A DNA stretch of 64,000 nt from Yinghuangia seranimata (GTDB lineage Bacteria; Actinomycetota; Actinomycetes; Streptomycetales; Streptomycetaceae), in assembly GCF_029953285.1 (NCBI RefSeq), contig NZ_JASAOI010000017.1, positions 1 to 64,000 on the forward strand. Reading direction: 5' to 3'. The position numbers were made by a program, and so were the translations under genes. Within the stretch, counting starts at the first letter, position 1. The number at the start of each line of letters is the position of its first letter. Shown here one piece after another: positions 13,815-28,721 of this stretch. The notes under the pieces are model-generated. The model saw only the letters and a list, made by a program, of their open reading frames with translations. It made no database searches and was not told the origin of the DNA.

Positions 13815-15317
13815 CTACCCCGCATTGTGAGCGCCGCGGGGTGTCTCGTGCGGGATCGGGCGGCCGGCGAGGGCCGCCGCCATCACCTCCGGGAACAGGT
13901 CCGGCGTGCACGCGAAGGCGGGGCTGCCGAGCGCGGCCAGGGCTGCGGCGTTCTGGTGGTCGTACGCCGGGGCGCCCTCGTCGGACAGGGCCAGCAGCGT
14001 CACCACCTGGACGCCCGCCCGGCGCAGGGCCGCGACGCGGCGCAGCATCTCGTCCCGGATCCCGCCCTCGAACAGGTCGCTGACCAGCACCAGGACGGTG
14101 TCGGCGGGACGGGTGACCAGCGACTCGCAGTAGGCCAGCGCCCGGTTGATGTCGGTGCCGCCGCCCAACTGGGTGCCGAACAGGACGTCGACGGGGTCGG
14201 CCAGCTGGTCGGTCAGGTCGACGACGGCGGTGTCGAAGGCCACGAGCGACGTGCGGAGCGAGCGCATCGACGCGAGCACCGCGCCGAACACCGACGCGTA
14301 CACGACGGACGCGGCCATCGAGCCCGACTGGTCGACGCAGAGGATGACGTCCTTCCGCACGCCGTTGCGGCGCCGCCCGTAGCCGACGAGCCGCTCGGGC
14401 ACGACGGTCCGGTGCCCCGCCTGGTAGTGCCGCAGGTTGGCGCGGATCGTCGCGTTCCAGTCGATGTCGTGGTGCCGGGGCCTCTGCACGCGTGCCGAAC
14501 GGTCGAGCGCGCCCTGCACGAGGCTGCGCGTGCGCTGCTCGACGCGCCGCTCCAGGTCGTCGACGACACGCCGGACGACGGCGCGGGCGGCGTCCTTGGC
14601 GGCCTCGGGCATGATCCGGTTCAGCGACAGCAGCGTGCCGACCAGGTGCACGTCGGGTTCGACGGCGGCGAGCATCTCCGGCTCCAGCAGCAGCCGCGTC
14701 AGGTCGAGGCGCTCGATGGCGTCCTGCTGCAGGATCTGCACAACGCCGGACGGGAAGTACTCCCGGATGTCGCCGAGCCACCGCGCGACCGACGGCGCAG
14801 ACGCCCCGAGCCCGGCCCCACGGGCCCCACCCCCGGCGGCACCCCGGCCCTCCGACGGGGCGGGCCGATAGAGCGCGGCCAGCGTCTCGTCGATCCGCCG
14901 GTCCTGACCGGTGAGGGCTTGGCCGGTGCCGTCGGCATCGCCGCCGAGAATGAGCCGCCAACGCCGCAACCGCTCCCCGTCCTCGGCGGGCGGGGTAGAG
15001 GCCTGGGCGAGGGGGGACGGGACGGTGTGGCGGGCGGGTGCGTGAGCCGGGTGCGCGGGGTCGGGACGGCCCGCGGCAACGCCGGGCGCGGCGGTGTCGG
15101 CGGGAGACGGCTCCGGCGCGGACGGGTTCGCAATGCCACCGGGCCGGGGCGGGGTGGTCGGCGTGCTCACTTGGACACCTCCGCGGCGCGACCGCGTGGG
15201 CGGCGTGTCGTGGGCGGGTCGCGTTGGGTCGGGATGGGTCACGGCGACGACGGGCGCGGTGTCGGTGGCGGGCGACGGCTCGGGGGCATCCGTTGTGGGC
15301 GTGCTCGGTGTGCTCAC
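13815..15317 (-). CDS. VWA (CoxE-like) metal-binding adaptor protein
   Basis: A 500-residue protein as called from GTG 15317. The C-terminal ~250 residues are a VWA domain with an intact MIDAS: DQSGSMAAS, a GGGTDINRAL threonine and LVSDLFEGG. Such proteins work with MoxR-type AAA+ ATPases as substrate or metal-ion adaptors. The middle (RRWRLILGG...LTRLLLEPEML) is typical of this family. The N-terminal ~100 residues are Pro/Thr/Ala-rich and contain an internal duplication; a second GTG start with its own GGAGG and GTGA context lies at 15170 and may be the original start (451 residues). It overlaps the upstream small frame by 4 nt. Confidence 0.88.
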   Translation of the reverse strand: MSTPSTPTTDAPEPSPATDTAPVVAVTHPDPTRPAHDTPPTRSRRGGVQVSTPTTPPRPGGIANPSAPEPSPADTAAPGVAAGRPDPAHPAHAPARHTVPSPLAQASTPPAEDGERLRRWRLILGGDADGTGQALTGQDRRIDETLAALYRPAPSEGRGAAGGGARGAGLGASAPSVARWLGDIREYFPSGVVQILQQDAIERLDLTRLLLEPEMLAAVEPDVHLVGTLLSLNRIMPEAAKDAARAVVRRVVDDLERRVEQRTRSLVQGALDRSARVQRPRHHDIDWNATIRANLRHYQAGHRTVVPERLVGYGRRRNGVRKDVILCVDQSGSMAASVVYASVFGAVLASMRSLRTSLVAFDTAVVDLTDQLADPVDVLFGTQLGGGTDINRALAYCESLVTRPADTVLVLVSDLFEGGIRDEMLRRVAALRRAGVQVVTLLALSDEGAPAYDHQNAAALAALGSPAFACTPDLFPEVMAAALAGRPIPHETPRGAHNAG

Positions 15318-15548
15318 CTGGGCACCTCCGCGGGGCCGGTTCGGGGCAGGGTGGTCGAGGCCCGAACGTCGGCCGCGCGCGTGGTGGCCGGGTCGGCGGC
15401 CGACCCGATACCCGCGACCGCATAGGCGGCCACAGCGTCGACCGGGTTCGGCTCGGAGGCTTCCGCAGCGAGCGTGCTCGCCTTCGTCGGCGAGCTCGGC
15501 GTGGTCGGAGTGGTCACCTCGACACCTCCGCGGGGCCGGTTCGGGGCG
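15167..15548 (-). repeat. Three tandem copies of the DUF5682/VWA gene junction
   Basis: On the minus strand the sequence GCGGAGGTG(T/C)C(C/G)(A)(A/G)G followed by GTGA and an (M/V)(S/T)TP(T/S)TP coding start occurs three times, with GTGA at 15517-15514, 15317-15314 and 15170-15167. Each copy also reads as a protein end AAEVSK, PAEVPR or PAEVSR plus TGA in the other frame. The spacings are 200 and 147 nt. The encoded segments align: APEPSPATDTAPVVAV against APEPSPADTAAPGVAA. This is a tandem duplication of a gene boundary. Confidence 0.8.
15314..15517 (-). CDS. Small junction ORF created by tandem duplication (doubtful gene)
   Basis: A 67-residue frame starting at GTG 15517, overlapping the DUF5682 stop (GTGA) and ending in TGA that overlaps the VWA start (GTGA). 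The N-terminus MTTPTTPSSPT resembles the VWA starts, and the C-terminus PRTGPAEVPR resembles the DUF5682 C-terminus PRTGPAEVSR. It is therefore best explained as a by-product of the junction duplication: it starts like the VWA protein and stops like DUF5682. It has a good GGAGG ribosome binding site and could be translated, coupling the two large genes. The Ala-rich composition suggests no folded domain. Confidence 0.5.
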   Translation of the reverse strand: MTTPTTPSSPTKASTLAAEASEPNPVDAVAAYAVAGIGSAADPATTRAADVRASTTLPRTGPAEVPR

Positions 15549-18500
15549 GGGGTGTCGGGGCGCCGAGGAGGTAGGCGACCAGGGGGAGCGCGGCGTCGGC
15601 TCGGGCGGGGTCGAAGGGGAGCGGGTCGGTGTCGCGGGCGGCGCGGCGGGCGGCGGAGGCGGCCGGTGCGCGCAGGCGCTCGCCCAGCGTGCGCCGCTCC
15701 GGGGCGGCGAACGACGCGAACGTGCGGCGCAGCAGCGGCAGCACGTCGGTGAAGTCCTCCGGCGGGATGCCCGCCACCCAGTCGTCGACCAGTGCCAGCA
15801 GGTCCTCGTCGTGCACCAGCAGCAGCCCGCCGCCTGACAGGAAACCCTCCACCCACGCCGCCGCGTCGCGGTATGGCGTGCCTCGGGTCAGCGCGCGGGC
15901 CAACCGGGGCGCGGCGTCGGCGGCGGTGAGCCGGTCGCCGTCCAGGAGAAGGCGCACGGCACGCCCGGTGAGCAGGCCGGGCACCGCGGGGCGGTCGGCC
16001 AGGCGGACGAGCGCGGCGTACCAGTGCTCGCGCAGGTCGTCCGTGGAGTCCGGGGGTCGGGTCGGGCCGGCGGCCCCTCCGGACCCTCCCACTGCTTCGG
16101 AATCTCCCGCTCCCCCGGCCCCGCCGGTTCCTCCGGCCCCACCGGCGGCCGCGGCGACCCGTGCGGGCTCGCGCGCCGCGGCCAGGAGCCGTACCGCGTC
16201 GTGCACTTCGTCGACGCGTCGGCACATGTCGCGCGCCCCGTCCGCGTCGAGGCCCGCGCACGCCGGGACCAGGCCCACGCAGACGCGCAGCAGCAGGCCC
16301 TCCACGACGGTCGCCAGCGCCGCCGTGTCGGTGCCCCGTACGTCGCCGTACCGCAGCGCCCGCACGAGCGCCGGCAACGCCTGTGCCATGCCCGCCACGT
16401 CGGAGTGCAACGCGGCGCGTTCCTCCAGGACGCGCATGACCAACGGCAAGGCATCCGGCAGGTCGGCGCGCAGGCACTGTTCCGCGACCGCCGTCACGTC
16501 GGCGAGCGACTCGGCGCGGTAGGCCAGTTCGGCGGCGCGGTTGGTCGCGGCCGCCGCCACCGTCGTGCCCCACACGCCCGCCTCCGCGACGCGGATCGCC
16601 AGCTCGGGCTGCCAGTGCAGCGACCACGCCTCGCGGAAGGTCCCGGTGCCGCGGCGTGCGGTGGACGGCACGCCCCACGGGACGTCGAGCAGGTCGAGCC
16701 TGGTCAGCAGTCGGCTGCGGTCGGCGTCGACGGGCTTGCGCAGGTCGAGTTCGAGCTCGCGCGGGGCGGCCTCGGGCTTGAGCCGCAGCCGGTTCTGCTC
16801 GCGGGTGAGGTCGCGTTGCAGGGGTACGGCGGGCACGCCGTCCGGGACGGTGCCGATGCGGTCGCCGACGACGATGTCGTCGACGACGAGCGCGAGCGGG
16901 GCGTCCTCGCCGTCGCACATGACCGCGCGCACGGCTTCGAGGGTCTCGTCGAGGCCGGCGAGCGGTCGGCCGCGCAGCATCGCGAGCGCCTCGGCGTGCC
17001 GCACCGCCTCGATCACGTGCGCGGGCGACACCGGCCGGCCCGCGTCGCGGAACAGTTCGGCGATGCGGACGAACCACGACGGCAGCAGCGTCTCCCGCGG
17101 CCGGTCGGCGGCCGCGAACAGGTGCCCGTACCAGCCCGGCGAGGCGACGCCGGCCCCGTAGCCGGACGCGTGCGCAAGCCGCCGGTGCGTCCACGGCACC
17201 CACGTCGTCTCGACTTTCACTCGCGGCAACGCCCCGCCACGCCCGAACGGCGCAAGCACCGCCCGGTCCTCCGCGGCGGGCCGCGGCTCGACGAGCGCGG
17301 GCACGTGCCACGCCCCGCACACCACGGCGACCTCGCGGAACCCTTGCCGGTAGGCGGTGGCGACGGCCAGCCGCATATGCGCCTCACGCGCGGCTTCGAG
17401 GCCGGGCAGGTCCGCGGTGGCAACGGAGCCGACCGCCCGCGAACCGGGTCGCACCGACGCGGGGGCCGCCGACGGAGAGGTGGCCGACGCGGGGATGACC
17501 GACGCAGGGCTGACCCCTGGCAGGCCGGTCGCGCGTGACGTGGCCATACCCGCGGTGTCCCGACCAGCCGCGGCAGCGAGACCTGCCTGAGTGTCCAGGC
17601 CGTCCGGCGCGGGGCCGGTACGCGCGGACGGGCTCGGCGTGTGGTGTGCACCGGCTGCCTGCGCGGTCGCGCCCCAACGTCCCTCCCGCACAGGCCCTGT
17701 CGCGCTCCCATCGCGATCAGCCACACCATCGTGGCCAGGGGCGGCCAGAGAATCGGCGTCGGCGGCGCCGCGTTCGTTCGCGCCCTCGCCCGTAGCCGAA
17801 GCGGTACCGCGCCCGGGCATCGCCGGACTGCCCTGCAGCGGCCGTCCCGTCGTGTGCCCGTCCGTCACGTTCGCCTGTCGCGCGGTGTCCTCGTGAGCGC
17901 CCAGCGTCGCAGCGGAGCCCGCCCCGCTTGCCCGGAGTTCGGCCATCGCCTCGGCCAGGAGGGCGAACGGCGCCATCGGGTCGGCGTGGTCGGTGTGGTC
18001 GGTGTGGTGCTCGACCGCGTCCTCCCACCAGCGTTCGGGGTCGTCGTGGCCGGCGACGTGGGCGAGGGCGGCTATCGGGTCGGCGCGAGGAGCGGGGGCG
18101 GAGGCGGGGTCGGCGTCCGGTTCGTCCTCGTCGGCGGCGTCGGCCCGCGCGCGGTCGAGGGCGAAGGTGCAGCCTGCCGGGAGGTCGATGAAGCGGACCG
18201 GGACACCCTTGTCGAGCGCGTAGCGGATGGCGACCCACTCGGGGCTGAACTCGGCGTACGGCCAGAACCCGGCCTGCGCCGGGTCGTCGGCCGCGTGGGC
18301 GAGGAGCGCGACCGGCGGGCGCATGCCGGGGTCGGCCGCGTAGGACAGCAGCAGGTCCGCTTCCGGCGGCCCTTCGATCAGCACGATGTCGGGGGCGAGC
18401 GCGGTCAGAGCGGCGGCGACCGCGCGGGCCGAGCCGGGGCCGTGGTGCCGGACCCCGAGCAGGTGCGGCCGGGGCGCGGGGCGCCGGGCGGAACGCCCGG

Positions 18501-18792
18501 CCGGACGCGCGGTCGTGGGCGCGGTCGTACGCGCGGCGGCCCGTCCGGACACCGCGCCGGGACGCCGGGCCGGGCGCACGGCTGACGCACCCGCCGTGGC
18601 CGGGCGCTCGTCGGACGCACCCGCATCGGCCAGGCCCTCCTCGGCCGCGACCACGTCGACGGGAGCCTCATCCGCCGGCCCCACCTCGGCGTGCCCCGGC
18701 CCCGCGCGGCCCACACCGGTACGGCGCGCGCCGGCAAGGCCCATGTCAACCGGGCGCGCCTCCGTCGGGACGCCCGTCGGGGCGTCCGCCAT
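15514..18792 (-). CDS. DUF5682 family protein (MoxR/VWA partner) with long insertions
   Basis: A 1092-residue protein of unknown function. The conserved core starts at residue ~111 (LLGVRHHGPGSARAV...PDIVLIEGPPEADLLL), continues with RFIDLPAG and GFREVAVVCGAWHVPAL, and has a helical C-terminal half. The HHGPGSA / IEGPPEA / GAWHVPAL pattern recalls TraB/ChaN-like proteins, an inference only. Two parts look like additions: residues 1-110 (Ala/Pro/Arg-rich) and residues ~290-460 (Ala/Gly/Ser/Thr-rich, no secondary structure expected). ATG 18792 shares one base with the upstream ATPase stop (TGATG), so translation is coupled. It sits between the MoxR ATPase and VWA genes in one operon. Confidence 0.85.
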   Translation of the reverse strand: MADAPTGVPTEARPVDMGLAGARRTGVGRAGPGHAEVGPADEAPVDVVAAEEGLADAGASDERPATAGASAVRPARRPGAVSGRAAARTTAPTTARPAGRSARRPAPRPHLLGVRHHGPGSARAVAAALTALAPDIVLIEGPPEADLLLSYAADPGMRPPVALLAHAADDPAQAGFWPYAEFSPEWVAIRYALDKGVPVRFIDLPAGCTFALDRARADAADEDEPDADPASAPAPRADPIAALAHVAGHDDPERWWEDAVEHHTDHTDHADPMAPFALLAEAMAELRASGAGSAATLGAHEDTARQANVTDGHTTGRPLQGSPAMPGRGTASATGEGANERGAADADSLAAPGHDGVADRDGSATGPVREGRWGATAQAAGAHHTPSPSARTGPAPDGLDTQAGLAAAAGRDTAGMATSRATGLPGVSPASVIPASATSPSAAPASVRPGSRAVGSVATADLPGLEAAREAHMRLAVATAYRQGFREVAVVCGAWHVPALVEPRPAAEDRAVLAPFGRGGALPRVKVETTWVPWTHRRLAHASGYGAGVASPGWYGHLFAAADRPRETLLPSWFVRIAELFRDAGRPVSPAHVIEAVRHAEALAMLRGRPLAGLDETLEAVRAVMCDGEDAPLALVVDDIVVGDRIGTVPDGVPAVPLQRDLTREQNRLRLKPEAAPRELELDLRKPVDADRSRLLTRLDLLDVPWGVPSTARRGTGTFREAWSLHWQPELAIRVAEAGVWGTTVAAAATNRAAELAYRAESLADVTAVAEQCLRADLPDALPLVMRVLEERAALHSDVAGMAQALPALVRALRYGDVRGTDTAALATVVEGLLLRVCVGLVPACAGLDADGARDMCRRVDEVHDAVRLLAAAREPARVAAAAGGAGGTGGAGGAGDSEAVGGSGGAAGPTRPPDSTDDLREHWYAALVRLADRPAVPGLLTGRAVRLLLDGDRLTAADAAPRLARALTRGTPYRDAAAWVEGFLSGGGLLLVHDEDLLALVDDWVAGIPPEDFTDVLPLLRRTFASFAAPERRTLGERLRAPAASAARRAARDTDPLPFDPARADAALPLVAYLLGAPTPPPRTGPAEVSR

Positions 18793-19928
18793 CAGGCCGC
18801 CCCCGCCTCGCGGCAGGCCCGGTAGAAGTCCTGCCAGCCGTCGCGGGACCGCACCACGGTCTCCAAATACTCCTGCCACACGACCCCGTCGGCGGCCGGG
18901 TCCTTCACCACCGCGCCGAGGATCCCGGCGGCGGTGTCGGCGGCCCGCAGCACGCCGTCGCCGAAGTGGGCGGCGAGGGCCAGGCCGCCGGTGACGACGG
19001 AGATCGCCTCGGCGGTGGAGAGGGTGCCCGACGGCGACTTGAGCTTTGTGCGTCCGTCCTCGGTCAGTCCGGCCCGCAGTTCGCGGAACACCGTGACGAC
19101 GCGCCGCAGTTCGGCGTCGGCGGCGGCGACCTTCGGCAGTTGGAGGGACACGCCGAGCTGTTCGACGCGGCGGGTGACGATGTCGACCTCGGCCTCGGCG
19201 GTCGCGGGCAGCGGCAGGACGACGGTGTTGAAGCGCCGGCGCAGCGCGCTGGACAGGTCGTTGACACCGCGGTCGCGGTCGTTGGCGGTGGCGATCAGGT
19301 TGAAGCCGCGGACCGCCTGGACCTCGTCGCCGAGTTCGGGGATCGGCAGGGTCTTCTCGGACAGGATCGTGATGAGCGTGTCCTGCACGTCGGCCGGGAT
19401 CCGGGTGAGTTCCTCGACGCGGGCGACGCGGCCTTCGGCCATGGCGCGCATGACGGGGCCGGCGACGAGCGCGTCGCGGCTGGGACCGTGGGCGAGCAGC
19501 TGGGCGTAGTTCCAGCCGTAGCGGATGGCTTCCTCGGGTGTGCCGGCGGTGCCCTGGACGAGCAGCGTGGAGTCGCCGCAGACGGCCGCCGCCAAGTGCT
19601 CGGACACCCACGTCTTCGCGGTGCCGGGCACGCCGAGCAGGAGCAGCGCGCGGTCGGTGACGAGGGTGGTGACGGCGACCTCGACGATGCGGCGCGGGCC
19701 GACGTACTTGGGGCTGATGACGGTGCCGTCGGGCAGGACGCCGCCGAGCAGGTACGTGGACACCGCCCACGGCGAGAGCTTCCAGCGCGGCGGCCTCGGC
19801 CGGTCGTCGGCGGCGGCCAGTGCGGCGAGTTCGGCGGCGAACGCGTGCTCGGCGTGCGGCCGCAGCGCCGCACCCGCCTGCTCGTCGGCGTGTTCGCCGG
19901 TCACGGCGGAGGACGCGGCAGAGGTCAC
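18792..19928 (-). CDS. MoxR-family AAA+ ATPase
   Basis: About 378 residues. Walker A is GVPGTAKT at ~99-106. The Walker B region reads RVARVEELTRIPADVQDTLI, with Glu-Glu where the classic motif has Asp-Glu. Sensor 1 is GFNLIATANDRD and an arginine-finger region is LSSALRRRFN. These ATPases remodel or metallate targets together with VWA proteins, here encoded two genes downstream. GTG 19928 is preferred (GGGGG upstream; MTSAASSAVTG); GTG 19967 and TTG 19973 extend it by 13 and 15 residues. First gene of the MoxR-DUF5682-VWA operon. Confidence 0.9.
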   Translation of the reverse strand: MTSAASSAVTGEHADEQAGAALRPHAEHAFAAELAALAAADDRPRPPRWKLSPWAVSTYLLGGVLPDGTVISPKYVGPRRIVEVAVTTLVTDRALLLLGVPGTAKTWVSEHLAAAVCGDSTLLVQGTAGTPEEAIRYGWNYAQLLAHGPSRDALVAGPVMRAMAEGRVARVEELTRIPADVQDTLITILSEKTLPIPELGDEVQAVRGFNLIATANDRDRGVNDLSSALRRRFNTVVLPLPATAEAEVDIVTRRVEQLGVSLQLPKVAAADAELRRVVTVFRELRAGLTEDGRTKLKSPSGTLSTAEAISVVTGGLALAAHFGDGVLRAADTAAGILGAVVKDPAADGVVWQEYLETVVRSRDGWQDFYRACREAGAA

Positions 19929-20020
19929 GGACAGCCCCCGGAGGTCGAGTTCGGAACGCGGTTGCACGTCCAAGCTTGCCGGTCCGTACCGACATACAGG
20001 CGACCCGGGGAACGTGACAA

Positions 20021-20058
20021 GCGCCCGAGGACACCGGCCGACCGGTGTCCTCGGGCGC
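20021..20058 (-). terminator. Terminator downstream of the small membrane-protein gene
   Basis: A perfect 17-bp stem (20021-20037 with 20042-20058) with a 4-nt loop CCGA. It separates the minus-strand gene ending at 20130 from the MoxR operon. Confidence 0.85.
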
Positions 20059-20129
20059 GTCGCGCGTCGGCCCGGACGGGGACTAGTGCCCGGGCCCGCG
20101 CCCGCTGTCCGGCGGGGTCCGGACAGCCG

Positions 20130-20828
20130 TCATCGGGTGATGGTGCTCTTGCCGAACGTCAGGCCGAGGCCGGTGATCAGCAGCCACGGCTGCGCCACCA
20201 GGGCCGGCAGGCCGGGGACCGGCTCGAACGCCCAGAAGACGAGCAGCGCCAGGATGAGCAGGACGGACACGACGCCGATCCAGCGCGAGACGGTCCGTTC
20301 GCGCAGCGCCATCCACGCGATGGCGCCCGCCGCGACGACCACGCCGAGCCAGCCGATGTAGCCGCCGAAGTCGGTGAGCATGTAGTAGACGTAGCGGCCC
20401 TGCTCGTCGAACGCGTCGTCCTCCTTGCCGCCCTGGGCGTAGATGGCCAGCGCGCCCTTCCAGCCGTAGCCGTACGTGAGCCCCGCGGCCGACGCGGCCA
20501 CGCCGAGGCTGACCACGCGGGCCGCGGTGCTGCCGGGCACGCGCGGTTCGACGTGCCGGCGCCACATCGCGGCCAGTACGAGCAGCAGCGTGACGGTGAC
20601 GACGCCGGCGTAGAAGCCGAACCTCGCCGTCGTGACGTTGACGTCTTTCACCATCGCGGACGTCACCGTGACGCCGCCGTCGGGATCGACGTGGACGTCC
20701 GTCAGGATCGTCGCCGTGAGCCCTGCGAGGCCCGCGGCGGTGAAGACCAGCGGCCAGTAGGTGCGGCGCGCCGGGGTCTCCCCCACCCCGGCGCGCCCGC
20801 CGACGGGACCGGATTCCGTGTACGTCAT
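20130..20828 (-). CDS. Polytopic membrane protein of unknown function
   Basis: A 232-residue protein with about five hydrophobic helices (YWPLVFTAAGLAGLTATIL, FGFYAGVVTVTLLLVLAAMW, VVSLGVAASAAGLTYGYG, GGYIGWLGVVVAAGAIAWMAL, IGVVSVLLILALLVFWAF). Between them are an acidic loop and an external segment with DVHVDPDGGVTV. The ATG at 20828 has GGGGGA about eleven bases upstream. It is divergent from the histidine kinase gene and could share its regulation. No family was recognised. Confidence 0.7.
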   Translation of the reverse strand: MTYTESGPVGGRAGVGETPARRTYWPLVFTAAGLAGLTATILTDVHVDPDGGVTVTSAMVKDVNVTTARFGFYAGVVTVTLLLVLAAMWRRHVEPRVPGSTAARVVSLGVAASAAGLTYGYGWKGALAIYAQGGKEDDAFDEQGRYVYYMLTDFGGYIGWLGVVVAAGAIAWMALRERTVSRWIGVVSVLLILALLVFWAFEPVPGLPALVAQPWLLITGLGLTFGKSTITR

Positions 20829-21027
20829 GTGGTGTTTTATCCCCCCACACAAGTCGCCGCTTGCGATACCGCCCCCCAGCGGTGCGTACTCGGACCCTGT
20901 GCCCGGTGCGGCGAGGTATACGTTCGCCGGACCGGTGTCCCGGGTACCAGGGACACCCGCACCGGGTCTCCGGGATTCCGCACGGGGGCGGTGTCGGGCG
21001 GCGCGGCCGCTGCGGCAGCATGACGGC

Positions 21028-23091
21028 GTGACCACGCACCAGCCGCCCGCCACGGACCTCGCCGACCTGCCCACGCCCCCGGTGGGGCGGGTGCGGGCGG
21101 CGGTGCGGCGCGTCCCCGAGCCGGTGCTCGTGCGGACGGCCGCGGTGCTGGCGGTGGTCGCGGTGGTGGCGATGGCCGCCTACATCCCCGTGTACGACTG
21201 GGTCGCGGCGCGGGCCGACGTGGTCCCGCTGTCGTGGGGCGACGTGATCCTCGGCTCGGCCTGGCCGGTGATCGGCGCGTTCGTCGTGCGGGGACGGCCT
21301 CGCAACCCGGTGGGCTGGCTGCTCATGGTGCCGTCGTCGTACGGCCCGTACCTCCTGGTCTCGCTCTACGGGGTGGCGTCCGCGCGCATCGCCGACGACC
21401 CGCTGCCGCTCGGGGACTTCGCGGCGTGGATCGGGACGTGGGGCTTCGCGCAGTACTTCGTCGTCGTCCCGATGCTGCTCCTGCTGTTCCCGGACGGGCA
21501 CCTCCCGGGGCGGCGCTGGCGGTTCGCGGCGTACGGCGTGTTCTTCTGCGCGGCCGTGGCGGCGCTGTCCGCGGCGTTCCACGAAGGCCCCGTGGACATC
21601 AGCGACGAGGTCGACAACCCGTACGGCATCCCGGGCACGCGATGGCTCATGTACGGCGTCATGGCGGGCGCGCTCATCACGCTGCTCCCGGGCACCCTGG
21701 TCGGCGTCGCGTCGCTCATCGTGCGGATGCGGCGCGCGGTCGGCGTGCAGCGCGCCCAGTTGCACTGGCTGGCCCTGGGCGCCGTCGGCATGGTGACCAG
21801 CTGGCTCGTGTCGTCGGTGCTGAACGACGGGCAGCTCACGGACGCGCTCTTCAGCGTCGGACTGCTGTGCCCGCCGATCGGCATCGCCGTCGCCATGCTG
21901 CGGCACCGCATGTTCGACGTGGTGGTGGTGCTCAACCGGACGATCGTGTCGATCGTGCTGACGGCGCTCATGGTCGGCGTGTACGCGGTCCTGGTGATCG
22001 GCGCCGGGCAGGTCGTGCCGAAGTCGACGATGGGGATCGTCGGGGTCGCGTTCATAGCGCTGTTCGCCTCCTTCGGGCACGACGCGGTGCAGCGCGTCGT
22101 CGACCGCTGGCTGTTCGGGCACCGGCACGACCCGTACGCGGTCGTCGCGCGCGTCGGCCGGCACGTCGCGCCGGCGTCCGAACCGACCGAGGCGCTGCAA
22201 CGGCTCGTGGACGCGCTGCGCAAAGCGCTGCGGCTGCCGTACGTGGCGTTCCACGGCGACGGCGTCGAAGCGGTCAGCGGAACCGCGGTCGCGGGCTGGC
22301 ACACCGTCCCGGCCCGGGCCCTCGGACAGGACATCGGCGAACTGCACGTCGGCATGCGCACCAGCAAAGAACGCTGGACCCCCGAGGAACTCGCCGCCGT
22401 CGAAGAGGTCGCCGCACGCGCCGCCACCCTCGCCTACGCCGCCAACCTCGTCGCCGACGTCGCCGCGAGCCGCGCCCGCATCGTCGTCGCCCGCGAGGAG
22501 GAACGGCGCAGGCTGCGTGCCGACCTGCACGACGGCGTCGGCCCGGCGCTGGCCGGCACCGCGCACCAGCTCGACGCCCTCGCGCGGCGCATCGACGCCG
22601 CCGGGCAGCCCGAACTCGCCGGGCGGGCCCGCGGCGTCCGCGACCGGCTCCGGCAGACCGTCACCGACCTGCGGTCCGTCGTGCACGGACTGCGCCCGCC
22701 CATCCTCGACCAACTGGGACTCACCGGCGCCCTGCGCGACCTGATCGCCGGCTACGAGACACCGCGCTGCACCGTCGACCTCGGGCCCGGCCTGGACACG
22801 GTGCCGGCCGCCGTCGAGGTCGCGGCGTACGCCATCACCGCCGAAGCGGTCAACAACGCCGTCCGCCACAGCGCCGCCGGAGAACTCCACGTCGGCGCAC
22901 ACCTGCGCGGCGGGAACCTCGTCGTCCACATACGCGACAACGGCTGCGGCATGCCGGTGCACCCCTCCGCCGGGGTCGGGCTCCGCAGCATGGGCGAACG
23001 CGCCGGCGAGGTCGGCGGCCGCGTCGACATCCTCCCGACGCCCGGCGGCGGCACAACGGTGCGGGCGAGCCTGCCGGGAGGACAACAGTGA
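21028..23091 (+). CDS. Membrane sensor histidine kinase (NarL-partner type)
   Basis: A 687-residue kinase. The N-terminal ~370 residues hold about nine transmembrane helices and no large external loop, so it probably senses membrane or intramembrane cues. A GAF-like region (~380-480) follows. The HisKA_3 dimerisation domain has EEERRRLRADLHDGVGPALAG with phospho-His501. The HATPase domain shows EAVNNAVRHS, DNGCGM and GLRSMGERA. The start GTG 21028 lacks a clear Shine-Dalgarno. The stop overlaps the response-regulator start (GTGA), so the pair forms one two-component system. Confidence 0.92.
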   Translation: MTTHQPPATDLADLPTPPVGRVRAAVRRVPEPVLVRTAAVLAVVAVVAMAAYIPVYDWVAARADVVPLSWGDVILGSAWPVIGAFVVRGRPRNPVGWLLMVPSSYGPYLLVSLYGVASARIADDPLPLGDFAAWIGTWGFAQYFVVVPMLLLLFPDGHLPGRRWRFAAYGVFFCAAVAALSAAFHEGPVDISDEVDNPYGIPGTRWLMYGVMAGALITLLPGTLVGVASLIVRMRRAVGVQRAQLHWLALGAVGMVTSWLVSSVLNDGQLTDALFSVGLLCPPIGIAVAMLRHRMFDVVVVLNRTIVSIVLTALMVGVYAVLVIGAGQVVPKSTMGIVGVAFIALFASFGHDAVQRVVDRWLFGHRHDPYAVVARVGRHVAPASEPTEALQRLVDALRKALRLPYVAFHGDGVEAVSGTAVAGWHTVPARALGQDIGELHVGMRTSKERWTPEELAAVEEVAARAATLAYAANLVADVAASRARIVVAREEERRRLRADLHDGVGPALAGTAHQLDALARRIDAAGQPELAGRARGVRDRLRQTVTDLRSVVHGLRPPILDQLGLTGALRDLIAGYETPRCTVDLGPGLDTVPAAVEVAAYAITAEAVNNAVRHSAAGELHVGAHLRGGNLVVHIRDNGCGMPVHPSAGVGLRSMGERAGEVGGRVDILPTPGGGTTVRASLPGGQQ

Positions 23092-24026
23092 ACGCCGGCA
23101 CCGACGAGCGCTACCAGCTGGCGCAGGCCGGCGGTGTGGACGAGCCGGGCCCTCCGACGCAGTCCGGCGTTGTGGACGGGGCAGACCGCTTGGCCGAGCC
23201 CGACGCGACGCCCGCACCGCACCCGTCGTCCGACACCTGCCTGACTTTCGAACCGCATCCGCACGCCGGAGCGGTCTTCTTATTACGCACTGTGGACACC
23301 CCACCCACCTCCGAGACCCCCCAGAGGCCCGACATCTCCACGCAGTCCGAAACCCCGTCCCCGTCCGGCGTCCGCGTCCTGGTCGTCGACGACCACCCCG
23401 TGTTCCGCGCCGGGATGGTCACCGTGCTCGAGGACCTCGACGACCTGGACGTCGTCGGTCAGGCGGGCGACGGCGCCGCCGCCCTCGCCGAAGTGGCCCG
23501 CCTCGCACCCGACGTGGTCCTGATGGACCTGCGCATGCCGGGCATGGGCGGCCTCGAAGCCACCGCGCAGCTCAGCACCACGCACCCCGACACCGCGGTC
23601 ATCGTCCTGACCATGGACGAGGACGACGACTCGGTCTTCGCGGCCCTCCGCGCGGGCGCCCGCGGCTACCTCCTCAAGGAGGCCGACGGCGACGACATCC
23701 GCCGCGCCATCCTCGGCGTCGCCCGCGGCGAGGCGGTCTTCGGCCCGCGGATCGCCCAACGCGTCCTGTCCTTCTTCGCCGGCGCCCCCGCGCACGCCCG
23801 CGGCGCCGTCCCCTTCCCCCAACTCACCGACCGCGAACGCGAGGTCCTCGACCTCCTGGCCCACGGCCTCGACAACGCCTCGATCGCCCGCCGCCTGGTC
23901 CTGTCGGAGAAGACCGTCCGCAACCGCGTCAGCGACGTCCTGGCCAAACTCCGCGCCCGCAGCCGCGCCGAAGCCGTAGCCATCGCCCGCGACGCCGGCC
24001 TCGGCCCGGCGCCTCAGTCGTCGTAG
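23088..24026 (+). CDS. NarL/LuxR-type response regulator with TTA-containing N-terminal extension
   Basis: 312 residues from GTG 23088, which has a strong GGGAGGAC site and overlaps the kinase stop. A receiver domain starts only at residue ~92 (VRVLVVDDHPVFRAG); phospho-acceptor Asp147 is in VVLMDLRMPG. A LuxR helix-turn-helix follows (LTDREREVLDLLAHGLDNASIARRL). The ~90-residue extension is unusual for this family and contains two consecutive TTA codons (23280-23285), codons 65-66. An in-frame GTG at 23292 (MDTPPTSE) would avoid both but has no ribosome binding site. The 3' end overlaps the opposite gene by 13 nt. Confidence 0.9.
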   Translation: MNAGTDERYQLAQAGGVDEPGPPTQSGVVDGADRLAEPDATPAPHPSSDTCLTFEPHPHAGAVFLLRTVDTPPTSETPQRPDISTQSETPSPSGVRVLVVDDHPVFRAGMVTVLEDLDDLDVVGQAGDGAAALAEVARLAPDVVLMDLRMPGMGGLEATAQLSTTHPDTAVIVLTMDEDDDSVFAALRAGARGYLLKEADGDDIRRAILGVARGEAVFGPRIAQRVLSFFAGAPAHARGAVPFPQLTDREREVLDLLAHGLDNASIARRLVLSEKTVRNRVSDVLAKLRARSRAEAVAIARDAGLGPAPQSS

Positions 24027-24379
24027 GCGTGGGCCTTCCACCAGGTGACGTCGATCCGGGCGTCCTCGATCTCCTGCGCCCGACGCAGCACATGCTCGAC
24101 GAACTCACGGGGCAGGCGCACGGCATGCTCGATGACGTAGTGCCCGAGCCCGCTGGGCCAGATATAGGTGCCGTCCGTGCGCTCGTCCCCGCCGTTCGCC
24201 TGCCCGCAGATGCGGCACCGCGAAGCACCCATGAACTGCCTGGCCACCTGCCCGTCGTGCAGATAGGTCTCGACGAGTACCCGCTCCTCCATGTCCCAGC
24301 CGGGATCCACGAGCACCTTCGGATCGGGGTAGGCGGAGGCGTCCTCTGACCACCAGTAGCCGACCATACGCAGGTCCAT
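24014..24379 (-). CDS. Conserved hypothetical protein
   Basis: A 121-residue soluble protein, MDLRMVGYWWSEDASAYPDPKVLVDPGWDMEER. A single CRICG pair near residue 55 is the only motif seen. An aromatic-rich C-terminus (VTWWKAHAYDD) is notable. The ATG at 24379 has a good GGAGG site at eight bases. Its last 13 bases overlap the end of the response-regulator gene on the other strand. The family was not recognised. Confidence 0.75.
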   Translation of the reverse strand: MDLRMVGYWWSEDASAYPDPKVLVDPGWDMEERVLVETYLHDGQVARQFMGASRCRICGQANGGDERTDGTYIWPSGLGHYVIEHAVRLPREFVEHVLRRAQEIEDARIDVTWWKAHAYDD

Positions 24380-24455
24380 GTCAGCCTCCGCTCCGCGTGA
24401 CGACGGGTGTGCCGGCCCGGACTTCGTTGATGACGGCGGCCACCTGGTCCTCGGC

Positions 24456-25970
24456 CTACTCCGCGTCGAACTCGGCGCGCATGGTGGCGCGTTCGCGGAG
24501 GGTGCCGGCGAGGTCGGTGAAGACGCGGGGCCAGTAGCCGGCGTCGTCTGTGGTGGTGGTCAGGGTGTGGACGGCGGGGAGCAGACCGGGGTTCATGGAG
24601 CGGCCGGCCATGCCGGTGACGCCGCTGTAGCTCCAGGGGTAGGCGGATTCGCGGGCGGCGGTGGCGAGGGCGTCGAGGACGGCGTGGCCGAGGACGTCGG
24701 GCCAGACGGCGGGGCAGCCGGCGAGGAGTTGGAAGGCTTCGGAGAGGCCGTGTTCGGCGACGTGCGCGGCGACATGGGCGGCGCGTTCGTCGACGGGGAG
24801 GACGGACAGCAGGCGGGTCGGGGCGCCGCGGCCGGCCTGGGCGCGGGCCCAGGCGGTGTCGTGTTGGGCGACGGCGGCGCGGGCCCAGCCGTCGCGGACG
24901 TCCTCGGCCCAGCGGGTCGGGAGGCGGCGGGCGAGGATGGCGGCGGGCGGCTCGGCGAAGGCCTCGGTCCATGCGGAGAGCGGGGTCGCGGCGACGATCT
25001 CGCCGAGCCACCAGGCGCGTTCCTCGCGGCCGGTCGGGGACTTGTCGGCTATGCCGTCGCGGCGCATGGCCTCGTCGCAGGCCTCCGGCGGGACGACGGT
25101 CACGGCGTCGGTGCCGTTGGGGCGTACGCAGGCGAGGGCACGCTCGGCCATGCGTCGGGCGAACGCCGAGCCCGGCAGGGTCGCGAGCAGTGCGGCGGCG
25201 CCGACGCGGACGGCCTTGCCGCGGTCGTCGAGGGCGGTTTCGAGGAAGGCCTCGTCGGCGTGGGAGAGGCCGGTGGCGAGGGCGGCGAGGAACTGGGCGC
25301 GGTCCTCGGCCGGTTCGCCGCGCCAGGTCTGTTCGAGCAGGTCGCGGGCGGCGTCGGGGCCGCGGCCGCGCAGGGCGGTGAGGAAGGCCAGGCGCTCGCC
25401 GAACAGGCCGTGGCGCCACACGTCCGGGTCGGCCGAGGTGTCGGCGGCGGCGACCCGTGCGGCCCATCCCCAGTCCGGGTTCAGACGGGCGAGCCAGCGG
25501 CCGCGCGGTCCGGCCAACGCCGCGACGTCGCTGCGTAGTTCGCTGTGCGCGCGGGCGATGTCGAGCAGGGCGGGGAGCTCCGACTCGGGTGCGCGGAAGC
25601 CACGTGCGCGGGCTTCGGCGAGCCATTCCGGCAGGAGTTCGGCGATCGCGGTACGGCCGGCCGGGGCGCCGCCTCCGCCGAGGAGGATCCGCAGGCGGAC
25701 GCGGGCCCGGTCCGGGACCGTCGGCCGCGGGTCCGGCGGGCACCGGTCGGGGAGGGCCGCACCGGTGCCGGGCCGCCGTCCGGCACGGCGGTGGACGAGC
25801 GTCAGCGCGGCCAGGTCGAGGAGGCGTTCGGCGGGGTCGGCGCGCCCGACGCTGAGAGCGGCGGCCCCGAGCGGGCCGGCCGGGTCGACGCCGGGCACGG
25901 CCCGTTTGCCGGTGCCGACGAGCGCGGTGGAGACGAGGTCGTCCCACAGCGCCTCGGTGTTCGCAGTCAT
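24456..25970 (-). CDS. DUF5691 family protein (HEAT-like helical repeats)
   Basis: A 504-residue, Ala/Leu/Arg-rich, all-helical protein. Its opening MTANTEALWDDLVSTALVGTGKR and the stretches HADEAFLETALDDRGKAVRVGAAALLATLPGSAFARRMAERA look like HEAT-type repeats. This matches DUF5691, a family of unknown function usually found beside SWIM zinc-finger and MoxR/VWA genes. Both kinds of partner are present here (SWIM upstream at 26815-28386, MoxR at 18792-19928). ATG 25970 is preceded by a GGGGTGG site. Confidence 0.82.
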   Translation of the reverse strand: MTANTEALWDDLVSTALVGTGKRAVPGVDPAGPLGAAALSVGRADPAERLLDLAALTLVHRRAGRRPGTGAALPDRCPPDPRPTVPDRARVRLRILLGGGGAPAGRTAIAELLPEWLAEARARGFRAPESELPALLDIARAHSELRSDVAALAGPRGRWLARLNPDWGWAARVAAADTSADPDVWRHGLFGERLAFLTALRGRGPDAARDLLEQTWRGEPAEDRAQFLAALATGLSHADEAFLETALDDRGKAVRVGAAALLATLPGSAFARRMAERALACVRPNGTDAVTVVPPEACDEAMRRDGIADKSPTGREERAWWLGEIVAATPLSAWTEAFAEPPAAILARRLPTRWAEDVRDGWARAAVAQHDTAWARAQAGRGAPTRLLSVLPVDERAAHVAAHVAEHGLSEAFQLLAGCPAVWPDVLGHAVLDALATAARESAYPWSYSGVTGMAGRSMNPGLLPAVHTLTTTTDDAGYWPRVFTDLAGTLRERATMRAEFDAE

Positions 25971-26044
25971 CGCCACCCCGTTGCTTTGACTCTCGGTGAG
26001 ACTCGGCAATCCCGGTGTTTCCGCCGGGATGGTTCGTGACGGTG

Positions 26045-26512
26045 TCACCCAAGCACGACCTGCGTTCGGGTGCCCTGTCGACGATGTACCGCTTCCTCCC
26101 GCCGCTGGTGCGGCGGGATTGCTCGGGCACCCTCGCGCTGGCCCCGCTTGGAGTTGGCGTAGTTGTCGAACGCGGCAGACGCGTTCGCCGGCCCGGTGTT
26201 GTACGCCTCCTTGGAGTTCTCCGCCCACCAGCCGGCGAACCTCCGGTCGGTGTGCTTGACACGGTTGAACTCCCGGCGCAACGCGGGCAGCGCCCACGAC
26301 CGCCACGCGGTCAGCCCGTCCTCGGGGACGCCGTAGGTCTCCTCGGCGGCACGCTGCCGCCACACCGCCTCGACCCACGCCACCGCCCAGTTGAACGCCG
26401 CCCGCGCCGCACCGCAGTGTGAGCGAAACCCCGCCTCCCGCGCCGCGTTCGGGTCCAACGCGAACCGGAACGCCTGCACGACGCAACCCTCGCGCACCAC
26501 GATCCGCTTCAC
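26045..26512 (-). pseudogene. Truncated TnpB (IS200/IS605 family OrfB) remnant
   Basis: The minus-strand frame from GTG 26512 reads VQAFRFALDPNAAREAGFRSHCGAARAAFNWAVAW, then WWAENSKEAYNTGPANASAAFDNYANSKRGQREG. These are the hallmark N-terminal segments of TnpB. After that the frame is lost and only ~155 residues remain of the usual ~400; the RuvC residues and zinc finger are absent. A small inverted repeat ATCCCGG/CCGGGAT lies near 26010-26031. It is a dead relic in the gap between the SWIM and DUF5691 genes. Confidence 0.8.
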
Positions 26513-26814
26513 CGTGCACCCCCGCCCAACGTTTCGGACACGCCCTGACTTCCAGCCCCCCGTTGTCGCAGAGTTCACCGCCGGAGCGGCAAATCCGCTG
26601 CGAACCAGCCTAAAGGGACGGTCTGACAGTGTGGGTCAACGGTGGGACGGGTGCTCGACGGCGCGGCGCAGGCGTGTGCAGGCCGACGAGCCGTCGGCCT
26701 GCGGCGGTCCTCGTCGAGACGAATCTCGTTGTCCGGGTCCGATGCCGGGCCTCCACTTGCGCGGATGACGCGCGGCACCTATCGACCGTCACTCGGACCG
26801 TGTTCGTCCTCGCG
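26513..26814 (-). other. Intergenic remnant region between the TnpB relic and the SWIM gene
   Basis: 302 bp with no credible gene. It contains the hairpin described at 26678-26702 and otherwise only GC-biased antisense frames. It may include flanking sequence of the decayed insertion element. Confidence 0.4.
26678..26702 (-). terminator. Hairpin downstream of the SWIM gene
   Basis: A perfect 10-bp stem GCAGGCCGAC / GTCGGCCTGC with a 5-nt loop lies 112 nt past the SWIM gene stop. It is a plausible terminator, though without a T-run. Confidence 0.6.
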
Positions 26815-28386
26815 TTACAGCGGGACCGCCCGGCCCTCGTGCCAGCAGGTCACCGGGGCGAAGCCCCGTGCGCCGTACTCGCCGAAGACCGTCATGCCGG
26901 CTCCGCCCGACATCGCCGCAAGGCGCCACAAGGCGTCGTCGCGGCAGCGGGAGCGGTCGACCGGGAGCCAGAAGCCCTTGTCGCCCGCGAAGTTCGGCAG
27001 GCCGCCCATGTCGGCGGCGTCCTGCGACAGGTCGCCGCCGAGGGCGACGATGCGCCAGCCGAGGACGTCGGGGACGGCGGCGACGTCGGCGAGGACGACC
27101 GGCCAGGTGTCGAGCCAGGGTTCGCGGCGCAGCGCGTCGGCGTAGGCGAGGGCGGCGTCTTCGGCGCCGCAGCCGGCCGGGACGTCGGCGGGCTCGGGCG
27201 GGCCGTGGCGTTCCGCGAGGTGGGCGCGCAGGGGTGCGGCCGCGTCGTGGAAGACCAGGTCGGCTTCGAAGCGCTCGCCGACGGGGAGGGCGAGCGGTGG
27301 GGCCTGGCCGGCGGCTCCGTAGGCGAGCACGAGGGCGGTGCGCCCGGTGCGTTCGCCGAGGAGCCATATCTGGCGGCGGACGGTGGGGTTGTCCTCGTCG
27401 TCACGACTGCCGAGGACGGTCCAGTGGTCGCGTACGGCGGTGCCCTGTTCGGCGGCGCGCTTGACGAGTTCCGCCGAGTCGACGTTCCAGCCGATGCGGG
27501 CCCGCAGGGACGCCGCCAGCGGCGCTTCGAGGCCGGCCAGCCGCTCGGCACCGTCGAGGCGTTCGCCGTCGAGACGTTCGCCGTCCAGGCCGGGGTCGGC
27601 GGCGTCGTCCGGTCCGCCGAGCCGGTCGTGGGCGCGCAGGACGAGCCACATCAGCGCGTAGTCCTCCAGCAGCCGGCTGGGCCAGCCTTCGCCGGAGCCC
27701 GGTCTGGTGCCGGCCTCGCGGAGCCGTTCGGCCAGCCGCGGGGCCTGCGCGTCGACCATGCTGCGCGCCTCGTTCTCCCAGTGCGCGTAGCCGGCGCGTT
27801 CGGCGCCGGCGAGGCCCTGGCGGACCTGGTCGGTGAGCCAGCGGCCGAGTTCGTCGACGCCTTCCGCGACGCGCGCGGCCTTCTGCGCGGCGCGGCGCCG
27901 CGCGGCCTCGGGGTCGGCGAGGCCGCCGCCCGCGGGCCGCTCCGTTTTCGGGCGCGCCGTCGCGGGCTCGCCGCCGTAGCGCGCGGTCAGCCATGAGGTG
28001 ACCCACGCGGGCGCGCCGACGGCGCCGCGGTCGTCCGTGTCTGCGGCATCCCCCGCGACCCCGCCGGCCGACCACAGCAGCAGCAGTCCGAGCGCGTGCT
28101 TGCACGGCTGCTTGCGGCTCGGGCATGTGCACGACCACGCGGGCGCGTCTGGGTCGACGACCGTGCGGTACGCGGTTGCGCCGCTTCCCGTGCACAACCC
28201 CCACACACCGCCGCGTGCGGTGCCCGGCGCGCCCCCTTGTTCGTCGCCGGTCGTGTCGCCGAGGGGTATGAGTCCTGCTCCGAGCCCCGTCCACGGCCCG
28301 GGGGCCGCCAGCTTCGTTCCGGCCTTCTGCGACGCGGCGTCGGGTGCCAGTGCCAACACCCGGTCCGCGGTCCAGCGTTCCAGCAT
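26815..28386 (-). CDS. SWIM zinc-finger protein
   Basis: A 523-residue protein. The SWIM motif CxCx6CxH is complete (Cys86, Cys88, Cys95, His97 in SCTCPSRKQPCKHALGLLLLW). It is predicted to bind zinc and DNA or protein. The remainder is helical, then alpha/beta, with a short LDGERLDGERLDG repeat. ATG 28386 (MLERWTADRVLALAPD) fits the family start; GTG 28395 and GTG 28422 are in-frame alternatives, none with a good ribosome binding site. Together with DUF5691 it usually belongs to the MoxR-DUF5682-VWA neighbourhood. Confidence 0.85.
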   Translation of the reverse strand: MLERWTADRVLALAPDAASQKAGTKLAAPGPWTGLGAGLIPLGDTTGDEQGGAPGTARGGVWGLCTGSGATAYRTVVDPDAPAWSCTCPSRKQPCKHALGLLLLWSAGGVAGDAADTDDRGAVGAPAWVTSWLTARYGGEPATARPKTERPAGGGLADPEAARRRAAQKAARVAEGVDELGRWLTDQVRQGLAGAERAGYAHWENEARSMVDAQAPRLAERLREAGTRPGSGEGWPSRLLEDYALMWLVLRAHDRLGGPDDAADPGLDGERLDGERLDGAERLAGLEAPLAASLRARIGWNVDSAELVKRAAEQGTAVRDHWTVLGSRDDEDNPTVRRQIWLLGERTGRTALVLAYGAAGQAPPLALPVGERFEADLVFHDAAAPLRAHLAERHGPPEPADVPAGCGAEDAALAYADALRREPWLDTWPVVLADVAAVPDVLGWRIVALGGDLSQDAADMGGLPNFAGDKGFWLPVDRSRCRDDALWRLAAMSGGAGMTVFGEYGARGFAPVTCWHEGRAVPL

Positions 28387-28721
28387 GACGGTCACGGTAC
28401 GGGTTTGCGCCGACACCTGCACCGTGGGGCCGGAATCCGGCCATTACCGCCACCCCTACCGGTCATGTCGGCACTGTGCGTGAACCGTCGCGCGCCCGCC
28501 GCACGTGTTCGTTGACATGACCGGGACGGTGCGCGGACGGGTCCGCGACGTCCCCCAAATGCCATACGCATAAAGGGGATTCATCCCCAACCATGATGTT
28601 AACGGGGTGTTTCGTGACATCCCCGGCCGGGGATACCGGCCGGTAGGGACCCGCGCCGGCGCTCGGCTCGCGGCGTCGCCACCACGGGGGACCTCTCCTT
28701 GATGACGCACGGAGGTGGGTC
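28387..28721. promoter_or_regulatory. Divergent SWIM / hydrolase control region with GGGGAT palindromes
   Basis: This region holds three perfect inverted repeats: GGGGATTCATCCCC (28575-28588), ATCCCCGGCCGGGGAT (28619-28634) and TACCGGCCGGTA (28634-28645). The first two share the half-site GGGGAT. GGAGG a few bases before ATG 28722 is the hydrolase ribosome binding site. A regulator binding GGGGAT half-sites could control both divergent genes. Promoter hexamers could not be fixed. Confidence 0.5.

Follow-up and report, generated by a model that had tools for sequence, protein, structure and literature searches.

Pairs of a MoxR-type AAA+ ATPase and a VWA-domain protein include NorQ/NorD, CbbQ/CbbO and CoxD/CoxE being further pairs of this kind. 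NorQ remodels the NorD linker next to the VWA domain (PMC13036017), NorD is thought to bind its client via the metal ion-dependent adhesion site (MIDAS; PMC9976466), and NorQD inserts iron (PMC13036017, PMC9976466). Among the MoxR-vWA ternary conflict systems, a GXXXTAKS variant of the P-loop is frequent in those with FtsH and beta-propeller components (PMC7159879), and vWA-MoxR-VMAP genes have been reported near CRISPR loci, in passages that name none of the families of the DUF5682 system. YehL, one of the two MoxR proteins of Escherichia coli K-12, represents one of seven named MoxR subfamilies (PMC3893208). Here we analyze a 64,000-nucleotide stretch of the Yinghuangia seranimata genome (contig NZ_JASAOI010000017.1, positions 1 to 64,000; hereafter the window), in which genes for a SWIM zinc-finger protein, a DUF5691 protein, a MoxR ATPase, a DUF5682 protein and a VWA protein all lie on the minus strand within 13815-28422. 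The initial annotation regarded them as one uncharacterised five-part ATPase system split by later insertions. Our results confirm that the five-family set is a genuine conserved system and show MoxR, DUF5682 and VWA to be the constant core of four editions of it; at the same time the system is not wholly uncharted, since YehL belongs to a named MoxR subfamily and four of the five families (MoxR, DUF5682, VWA and SWIM) constitute yehLMPQ of E. coli.

DUF5682 and DUF5691 were each detected in 35 of 41 related genomes, and in 30 of the 35 genomes with DUF5691 a DUF5682 match lay no more than 10 kb away. In the other five, DUF5682 was located about 28 kb away (G016), on a different contig (G021, G038 and G039) or was not matched at all (the draft genome G011), the DUF5691 match beginning at a contig end in both G011 and G021. 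Forty DUF5682 regions were fetched, the class-A part of which (a grouping by score and neighbours) comprised 23 of the 29 best places and G001; with the window included, all five families stood together in 24 of these 25 regions, the DUF5691 match being weak or partial in some of them and split between two frames in L051. The sole exception was G016 (L066), in which an intact SWIM-DUF5691 pair lies apart from the core on the same contig, and in the six best places that were not fetched (G027, G029, G030, G031, G034 and G037) the match tables put DUF5691 beside DUF5682. A DUF5691 profile scan of public species genomes was evaluated for the best 80 of 516 confirmed places, nearly all of them from Streptomycetaceae and so not independent: all five families were present at 75 loci, the other five being truncated where a contig or stretch ended. 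Of 149 evenly sampled Actinomycetota, nine had DUF5691 above the cut-off, with its four partner families adjoining, and the same nine had class-A DUF5682, neither being present in the other 140 (Fisher p 1.3e-14, kinship being ignored and the two scans being taken to have sampled identical genomes); one of the 140 negatives, G162, carries a DUF5682 of type II (see below). Five of the nine positives belong to other families than the window, and all five have a co-directional five-gene row, in which DUF5691 is weak and partial in three. A DUF5691 match in G088, below the cut-off and without partner genes, was dropped as spurious. Linkage and co-occurrence rule out chance clustering of the five families, and DUF5691 is not found mostly apart from its partners, few exceptions (G016, G011) being known and other phyla included.

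The five-part set is, however, one edition of a larger family, since the core occurs without DUF5691 in three other editions. Type I, that of the window, has the composition SWIM-DUF5691-core. Type II reads DUF4132-core-SWIM, as in yehI-L-M-P-Q of E. coli and on an Iodobacter plasmid, and stands in a different order in Sinorhizobium, so that a SWIM gene accompanies the DUF4132 edition as well. Type III consists of a small DUF4132 protein, a giant protein, MoxR and a DUF5682 fused to VWA, no Pfam match being obtained for the two giant proteins tested (1,585 and 1,639 amino acid residues, aa), and type IV is the core only, arranged as VWA-MoxR-DUF5682-like. Because L076, L167, L168, L169-L173 and the window are the source of the edition profiles, they match by construction; independent confirmation came from L067-L071 (5/5) together with L205 and L206 (2/2, the SWIM match of L205 being weak at 27 bits) for type II, from L056-L062 (7/7) for type III and from L072-L075 (4/4, core only) for type IV. 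The case of L205 had been predicted beforehand, as that of a genome with DUF5682 and without above-cut-off DUF5691, and it proved to be type II. All four editions are held by the window's own genome: the window itself (I), L071 (II), L059 (III) and L072 (IV). The type III copy shares the window's contig, at a distance of about 136 kb from the type I copy. With the edition profiles, no ORF (open reading frame) of the window had DUF4132 as its best match, DUF5691 being found instead; profile comparison detected no homology between these two families (0.5% probability). In a tree of 34 MoxR rows, restricted to the four editions, a single branch separates each edition from the rest (support 100/99 or 100/100), and the window MoxR and YehL belong to different well-supported groups; the partner genes thus follow MoxR ancestry. 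The initially annotated five-part machine stands as a conserved set, refined by a three-part core.

Within the type I set two units are distinguished, a motor-enzyme unit (MoxR, DUF5682, VWA) and a recognition unit (SWIM, DUF5691). DUF5682 and VWA share a single ORF in all eight type III loci, where the VWA domain scores 234-255 bits inside the DUF5682 ORFs. One row of the VWA profile (L173:12717-14594) lacks the MIDAS motif and is probably not a VWA protein, and it probably has relatives downstream of L056, L058 and L061, where weak VWA matches (28-63 bits) were obtained; the fusions are independent of this row, the window VWA protein by itself matching the fused stretches of L056-L062. In Hymenobacter HDW8, SWIM and DUF5691 form a single ORF annotated as one gene: the SWIM profile, which does not include the fused protein (the DUF5691 profile does), scores 292 bits over residues 4-472, and tblastn puts DUF5691 in the second half. 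In Nocardia the two share one stop-free frame, weaker evidence of a fusion given how often GC-rich DNA contains long open frames. Considering the fusions, the intact pair of G016 and the divergent orientation of the pair relative to the core in 77 of the best 80 of 516 loci (74 complete, 3 cut), SWIM-DUF5691 is treated here as a unit.

Beyond the family, the type I row in window order occurs in Actinomycetota, Deinococcota, Bacteroidota and Alphaproteobacteria. A plasmid collection searched with the window DUF5691 yielded five records (Nonomuraea L186, Nocardia L187, Methylobacterium L188 and Hymenobacter L189 and L170), several of them of chromosome size, with the other four families adjoining in all five; three further type I rows were found via DUF5682 in Deinococcus (L169), Rhizobium (L171, SWIM in two pieces) and Methylosinus (L172, VWA in pieces). 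In Fusobacterium a 638-aa protein of no assigned family (L190:5947-7861) fills the DUF5691 slot between SWIM and MoxR. A small additional ORF separates MoxR from DUF5682 in Deinococcus (L169:8747-8983, 79 codons) and Hymenobacter (L170:8362-8973, 204 codons). DUF5682 of Hymenobacter radiodurans is annotated as three overlapping pieces (L189:11986-14278), reflecting either a broken gene or a sequencing fault, and that of Hymenobacter HDW8 is annotated whole; the Nocardia farcinica row (L187:435-4016) stands downstream of a predicted rifamycin-resistance rpoB2 gene. These rows bear on the view that MoxR-DUF5682-VWA and SWIM-DUF5691 are two independent units, mere neighbours in a conserved chromosomal region, for which the divergence of the pair, the distance between the halves in G016 and the DUF5691 of G011 without DUF5682 could be adduced. 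We consider it very improbable. Co-directional five-gene rows occur in four phyla, and the annotated genes around L169-L172 and L189 include no sucCD (the flanking genes in Streptomycetaceae, see below); in the 149-genome sample DUF5691 and class-A DUF5682 are present or absent together, and a SWIM gene accompanies the DUF4132 edition too.

The window genes were assigned by a Pfam profile scan with curated cut-offs, to which six ORFs were first submitted, and the scores bear out the five families at their annotated places (Table 1); the sixth ORF, 20083-23304 on the minus strand, gave no Pfam match. Motif inspection found the MIDAS residues of the VWA protein complete (DQSGS, GGTD, SDLF), as initially annotated. 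The SWIM ligands CxC...CxH occupy residues 98, 100, 107 and 109 of the window protein and were found in 22 of 24 aligned rows, the remaining two being local matches ending short of the finger. The open frame of DUF5691 reaches 26519, yet its domain begins only at residue 194 of that frame, hence the likely start given in the table; the 183 codons upstream (25971-26519) are an over-extension overlapping the TnpB relic in another frame.

Table 1. Coordinates of the features discussed, as positions of the window.
Feature	Positions	Strand	Remarks
VWA_CoxE protein	13815..15317	-	Pfam VWA_CoxE 196.4 bits (cut-off 26.4); in-frame GTG starts 15317, 15170
67-codon ORF between DUF5682 and VWA	15314..15517	-	4-nt GTGA overlap at each side
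DUF5682 protein	15514..18792	-	Pfam 884.7 bits (cut-off 26); start ATG 18792
DUF5682 GxxH His (VVCGAWH)	17305..17307	-	29/29 rows
DUF5682 Asp (FIDLP)	18184..18186	-	29/29 rows
DUF5682 Glu (VLIEGPPE)	18373..18375	-	29/29 rows
DUF5682 His-His (GVRHHGPGS), first signature motif	18442..18447	-	H and H in 29/29 rows
MoxR AAA+ ATPase	18792..19973	-	AAA_5 129.6 bits (cut-off 22); variant P-loop GVPGTAKT
Putative membrane protein ORF	20130..21074	-	coding-like codon-position bias; Pfam matches below cut-off only; outside the machine
Histidine kinase	20761..23091	+	Pfam HisKA_3, HATPase_c
LuxR-type response regulator	inside open frame 23091..24026	+	Response_reg 101.2 bits, GerE 60.7 bits
DUF5691 helical-repeat protein	24456..25970	-	Pfam 528.5 bits (cut-off 27); likely start ATG 25970
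TnpB relic	26045..26578	-	HTH_OrfB_IS605 23.8 bits (cut-off 21), E 3e-5 (weak)
SWIM zinc-finger protein	26815..28422	-	Pfam SWIM 27.6 bits (cut-off 19.6)

The last three genes of the row had been described as coupled by overlaps of 1-4 nt. This holds for MoxR and DUF5682, the DUF5682 start sharing 1 nt with the MoxR stop (TGATG), but DUF5682 and VWA do not overlap directly: the DUF5682 stop (GTGA at 15517) opens the 67-codon ORF in a different frame, and the stop of this ORF lies in another GTGA, at 15317, which is in the VWA frame. The VWA start region is present in three copies at 15151-15560 (63-nt units; spacing 147 and 200 nt), a threefold repetition that accompanies, and would have made, the 67-codon ORF, which was not seen in two congeners, where the DUF5682 and VWA genes abut or overlap directly.

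In the DNA comparison the membrane gene, the kinase and the regulator were present in both congeners (L054 and L055), with the kinase standing between the two cluster halves, whereas in L047 and L048, from another genus of the same family, DUF5691 adjoins MoxR and no kinase match was found. The stretch 25980-26810, containing the TnpB relic, had a DNA match in neither congener and is thus specific to the window among the three congeneric sequences. The membrane gene and the two-component system are accordingly genus-level insertions, and the statement that the set was split by later insertions was right. As for the inserted elements themselves, the two-component system, with its kinase and LuxR-type regulator, was confirmed on the plus strand; the TnpB relic was upheld, if weakly; and the membrane protein gene, though coding-like in its codon bias, gave no family match above the cut-off, its 5' end overlapping the kinase ORF, so that the true start may lie further inside. 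No sigma-70-type promoter or terminator was found by a scan that is uninformative in a GC-rich genome. Elsewhere in the window (8367-9902, plus strand) a 511-aa protein has a sigma-70 region 4 above the cut-off and a region 2 slightly below it.

The MoxR proteins carry the P-loop GxPGTAK[ST] in 25/25 type I-III rows (GTAKT in the window) and GTGKS in 4/4 type IV rows; the nearest solved relatives of the window protein are midasin and NorQ. In DUF5682 a His-His pair, a Glu, an Asp and a late GxxH, with its Gly and His, are conserved in 29/29 diverse rows from all four editions, the G of the first motif being replaced by P in the four type IV rows and in L169. The alignments behind the structure models drew on 38 of 75 and 39 of 79 available relatives. 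The DUF5682 model reached a mean predicted local distance difference test score (pLDDT) of 74.3, and of 80 to 94 in the 10-residue blocks with the signature motifs, which in the model appear at or just past the ends of predicted strands 4-8, 30-33, 93-95 and 382-387; it also contains a low-confidence insertion of about 160 aa, probably disordered, and a helical C-terminal half. No Foldseek match of E < 0.001 was obtained with this model, and the matches of a structure search were to helical repeats in the region of residues 635-937 (best Z 8.9, root mean square deviation (rmsd) 3.6, 209 aligned); the helical half dominates the 50 rows listed, among which there is no TIKI-fold chain, so that the N-terminal domain was barely probed. 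By sequence, the only match of DUF5682 among solved structures (E 0.17) was taken as chance, and none was found for the SWIM protein up to E 1. In layout the DUF5682 motifs appear, on visual inspection, to resemble the TIKI/TraB signature. Since the hidden Markov model (HMM) and profile tests are unsupportive and the fold comparison was mainly of the helical half, we claim resemblance and not membership; of the TraB/ChaN-like character initially ascribed to DUF5682, the motif layout and predicted strand order stand, and the profile tests gave it no support. DUF5691, annotated as helical repeats, is indeed all-helical save one short hairpin in its model (mean pLDDT 88.8). No Foldseek match of E < 0.001 was found for it either, and structure searches gave generic ARM/HEAT solenoids only (best Z 10.3, rmsd 3.9, 122 aligned), a Z below the level counted as telling for helical repeats; the protein is predicted to be an ARM/HEAT-like solenoid.

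Taken together, these data lead us to lean somewhat towards the interpretation that the products of the five genes form a single ATP-driven remodelling machine of two sub-modules, acting in a NorQD-like manner. Starting from the linkage, gene order, fusions, intact motifs, predicted folds and matching MoxR phylogeny observed here, we infer the hexamer, the subunit contacts and the catalysis of the following scheme. In the motor arm, a MoxR hexamer would act on the VWA protein bound (in type III, fused) to DUF5682, as NorQ acts on NorD; DUF5682, a tethered domain if the type III fusion is a guide, would stand where NorD has its N-terminal domain, supplying an alpha/beta domain and a helical C-terminal half, its HH...E...D...GxxH site being presumably hydrolase-like or metal-binding. 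In the recognition arm, the SWIM zinc finger and the DUF5691 solenoid would pick the client. ATP hydrolysis would then twist the VWA arm, so that a MIDAS-held client would be presented to the DUF5682 site. A further, tentative proposal, which we would sooner doubt than accept, casts DUF5682 as a TIKI-like enzyme, hydrolase or protease, powered by the MoxR-VWA motor.

A number of observations weigh against the remodelling interpretation. The two halves of the set are split in G016, and DUF5691 is present in the G011 draft, where DUF5682 gave no match. In the regions read, the cluster is not coupled to a metalloenzyme or to any other gene that would be an obvious client. The TraB_PrgY_gumN model matched in 0/21 genomes, including that of the window (G000) with its DUF5682 loci, controls being matched in 6/14; in profile comparison DUF5682 matched TraB (6 sequences) at a non-significant 1.5% probability and Ere at 0.1%, a comparison that is uninformative, as the Ere-vs-TraB positive control also gave 0.1% and at least two Ere rows were apparently in the wrong frame. 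Finally, a YehM relative occurs in 31 of 72,556 plasmid records, several of them chromosome-sized, and the type II copy of the Iodobacter plasmid (L167:15092-18749) adjoins restriction-modification genes (M, PDDEXK nuclease, S); plasmid copies fit a mobile or conflict role better.

Such a role would make the cluster a MoxR-vWA ternary conflict subsystem, in which a thresholding ATPase switch deploys a DUF5682 effector against invaders. Besides the plasmid copies, it could account for the GxPGTAK[ST] P-loop, a variant that many FtsH and beta-propeller ternary systems are reported to have, for a bpMoxR match of 25 bits (curated cut-off 27) and for the presence of four editions within one large actinomycete genome. 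We nevertheless regard it as unlikely. None of the five proteins had a PADLOC-DB match at E 0.001, and no variable effector gene was noticed in the annotated rows read, without systematic search. Among 50,697 phage records there was no DUF5691 and a single unverified DUF5682, in a 14-kb faecal scaffold (L196) that also has MoxR and VWA and is possibly bacterial DNA. Moreover, in Streptomycetaceae the cluster has a fixed address between sucCD and pcrA: sucC or sucD are neighbours in 21/24 regions and in 67 of the best 80 of 516 places, and pcrA in 14/24 and 75/80, these regions being of about 20 kb and the misses including cut ends. The window is flanked by sucCD, a hydrolase, an M23 peptidase and a UvrD/PcrA helicase, and the same flanks recur in relatives. 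The sister system yehLMPQ, confirmed by search as the E. coli relative, is present at ≥80% coverage in 5162 of 5426 E. coli genomes (95%). A fixed address combined with a near-universal sister system favours a resident maintenance job over a mobile weapon.

The E. coli edition also supplies leads, and only leads, for a metal-related function, namely that of a NorQD/CoxDE-like chaperone for metallocofactor insertion, in which MoxR-VWA would open the client and DUF5682 and SWIM would hand over or sense the metal. The reduced strain DGF-298 is devoid of the segment from molR to yehQ, which makes yehLMPQ dispensable, and its deletion list has molR pieces immediately before yehI; a yehH pseudogene occupies this position in MG1655 and presumably corresponds to these pieces. 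The title of a paper cited in PMC8533742 calls molR essential for molybdate use, and yehM is among the genes mutated in copper-evolved E. coli (PMC12409786). These links, together with the VWA_CoxE domain, the presence of NorQ among the nearest solved relatives and the iron insertion by NorQD, would suit a metal chaperone. However, the regions read show no metalloenzyme linked to the cluster, the copper result is a list of mutated genes with no test of yehM itself, and in a Deinococcus study molybdate genes were not differentially expressed where a DUF4132 gene and a WGR gene were strongly raised; we judge such a function improbable, more so than conflict. Returning to the remodelling machine, its E. 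coli edition has been handled genetically in a butanol-tolerance study, in which yehQ was deleted and its wild or mutated form was placed on plasmids; among the papers listed by the literature searches, which covered few subscription papers, none addressed the function of DUF5682, DUF5691 or the YehLMPQ system.

If the enzymatic proposal for DUF5682 is true, the cluster would represent a previously undescribed class of ATP-dependent processing machine with a fixed motor-enzyme core, whose recognition module is swapped among editions: SWIM-DUF5691, DUF4132-SWIM, a giant unassigned protein with a small DUF4132 protein, or neither. In that case bacterial cell biology would acquire a new type of AAA+-coupled processing machine, with the yehLMPQ genes of E. 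coli K-12 as its working laboratory example. DUF5682, DUF5691, DUF4132 and two kinds of SWIM protein are united as one machine family of a core and exchangeable parts, and DUF5682 gains a sharply conserved candidate active site; as one edition is near-universal in E. coli, both the row of "y" genes and the YehL subfamily of MoxR become testable by K-12 deletions.

Of the known systems, the yehI-L-M-P-Q row of E. coli is alike in having MoxR, DUF5682, VWA_CoxE and SWIM in one row, with the same P-loop variant and DUF5682 signature. It differs in having DUF4132 where the window has DUF5691 and in its SWIM gene being last, while that of the window is first; the two types of SWIM protein aligned over only 29 columns around the finger (8.6% probability), and YehL and the window MoxR represent separate, well-supported MoxR groups. 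The NorQ/NorD pair likewise combines a MoxR ATPase with a MIDAS-bearing VWA protein that has an additional N-terminal domain, and the window VWA is of the CoxE type, as in the NorQD/CoxDE chaperones; in the window, by contrast, DUF5682 would fill the role of the extra domain, and a linked client enzyme was absent from the regions read. To our knowledge, SWIM-DUF5691 has no counterpart in NorQ/NorD-type systems.

The ternary conflict systems (VMAP, iSTAND, FtsH, beta-propeller) share with the present one a MoxR, a VWA and a third constant protein, but here the third component is DUF5682 and the address is fixed in Streptomycetaceae; the window proteins gave no Pfam match to VMAP, iSTAND, FtsH or beta-propeller components, the library coverage of these families being uncertain, and bpMoxR membership fell below the curated cut-off. 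With TIKI, TraB, ChaN and Ere, DUF5682 appears to share the xxxHH motif, a Glu about 24 residues further on at a predicted strand end, the late GxxH and an alpha/beta order, the conserved His-Glu logic of TIKI catalysis being described in PMC6254334. It differs from them in showing no HMM or significant profile match, in its large helical C-terminal half and in being accompanied by MoxR and VWA partners in every locus examined by the edition profiles.

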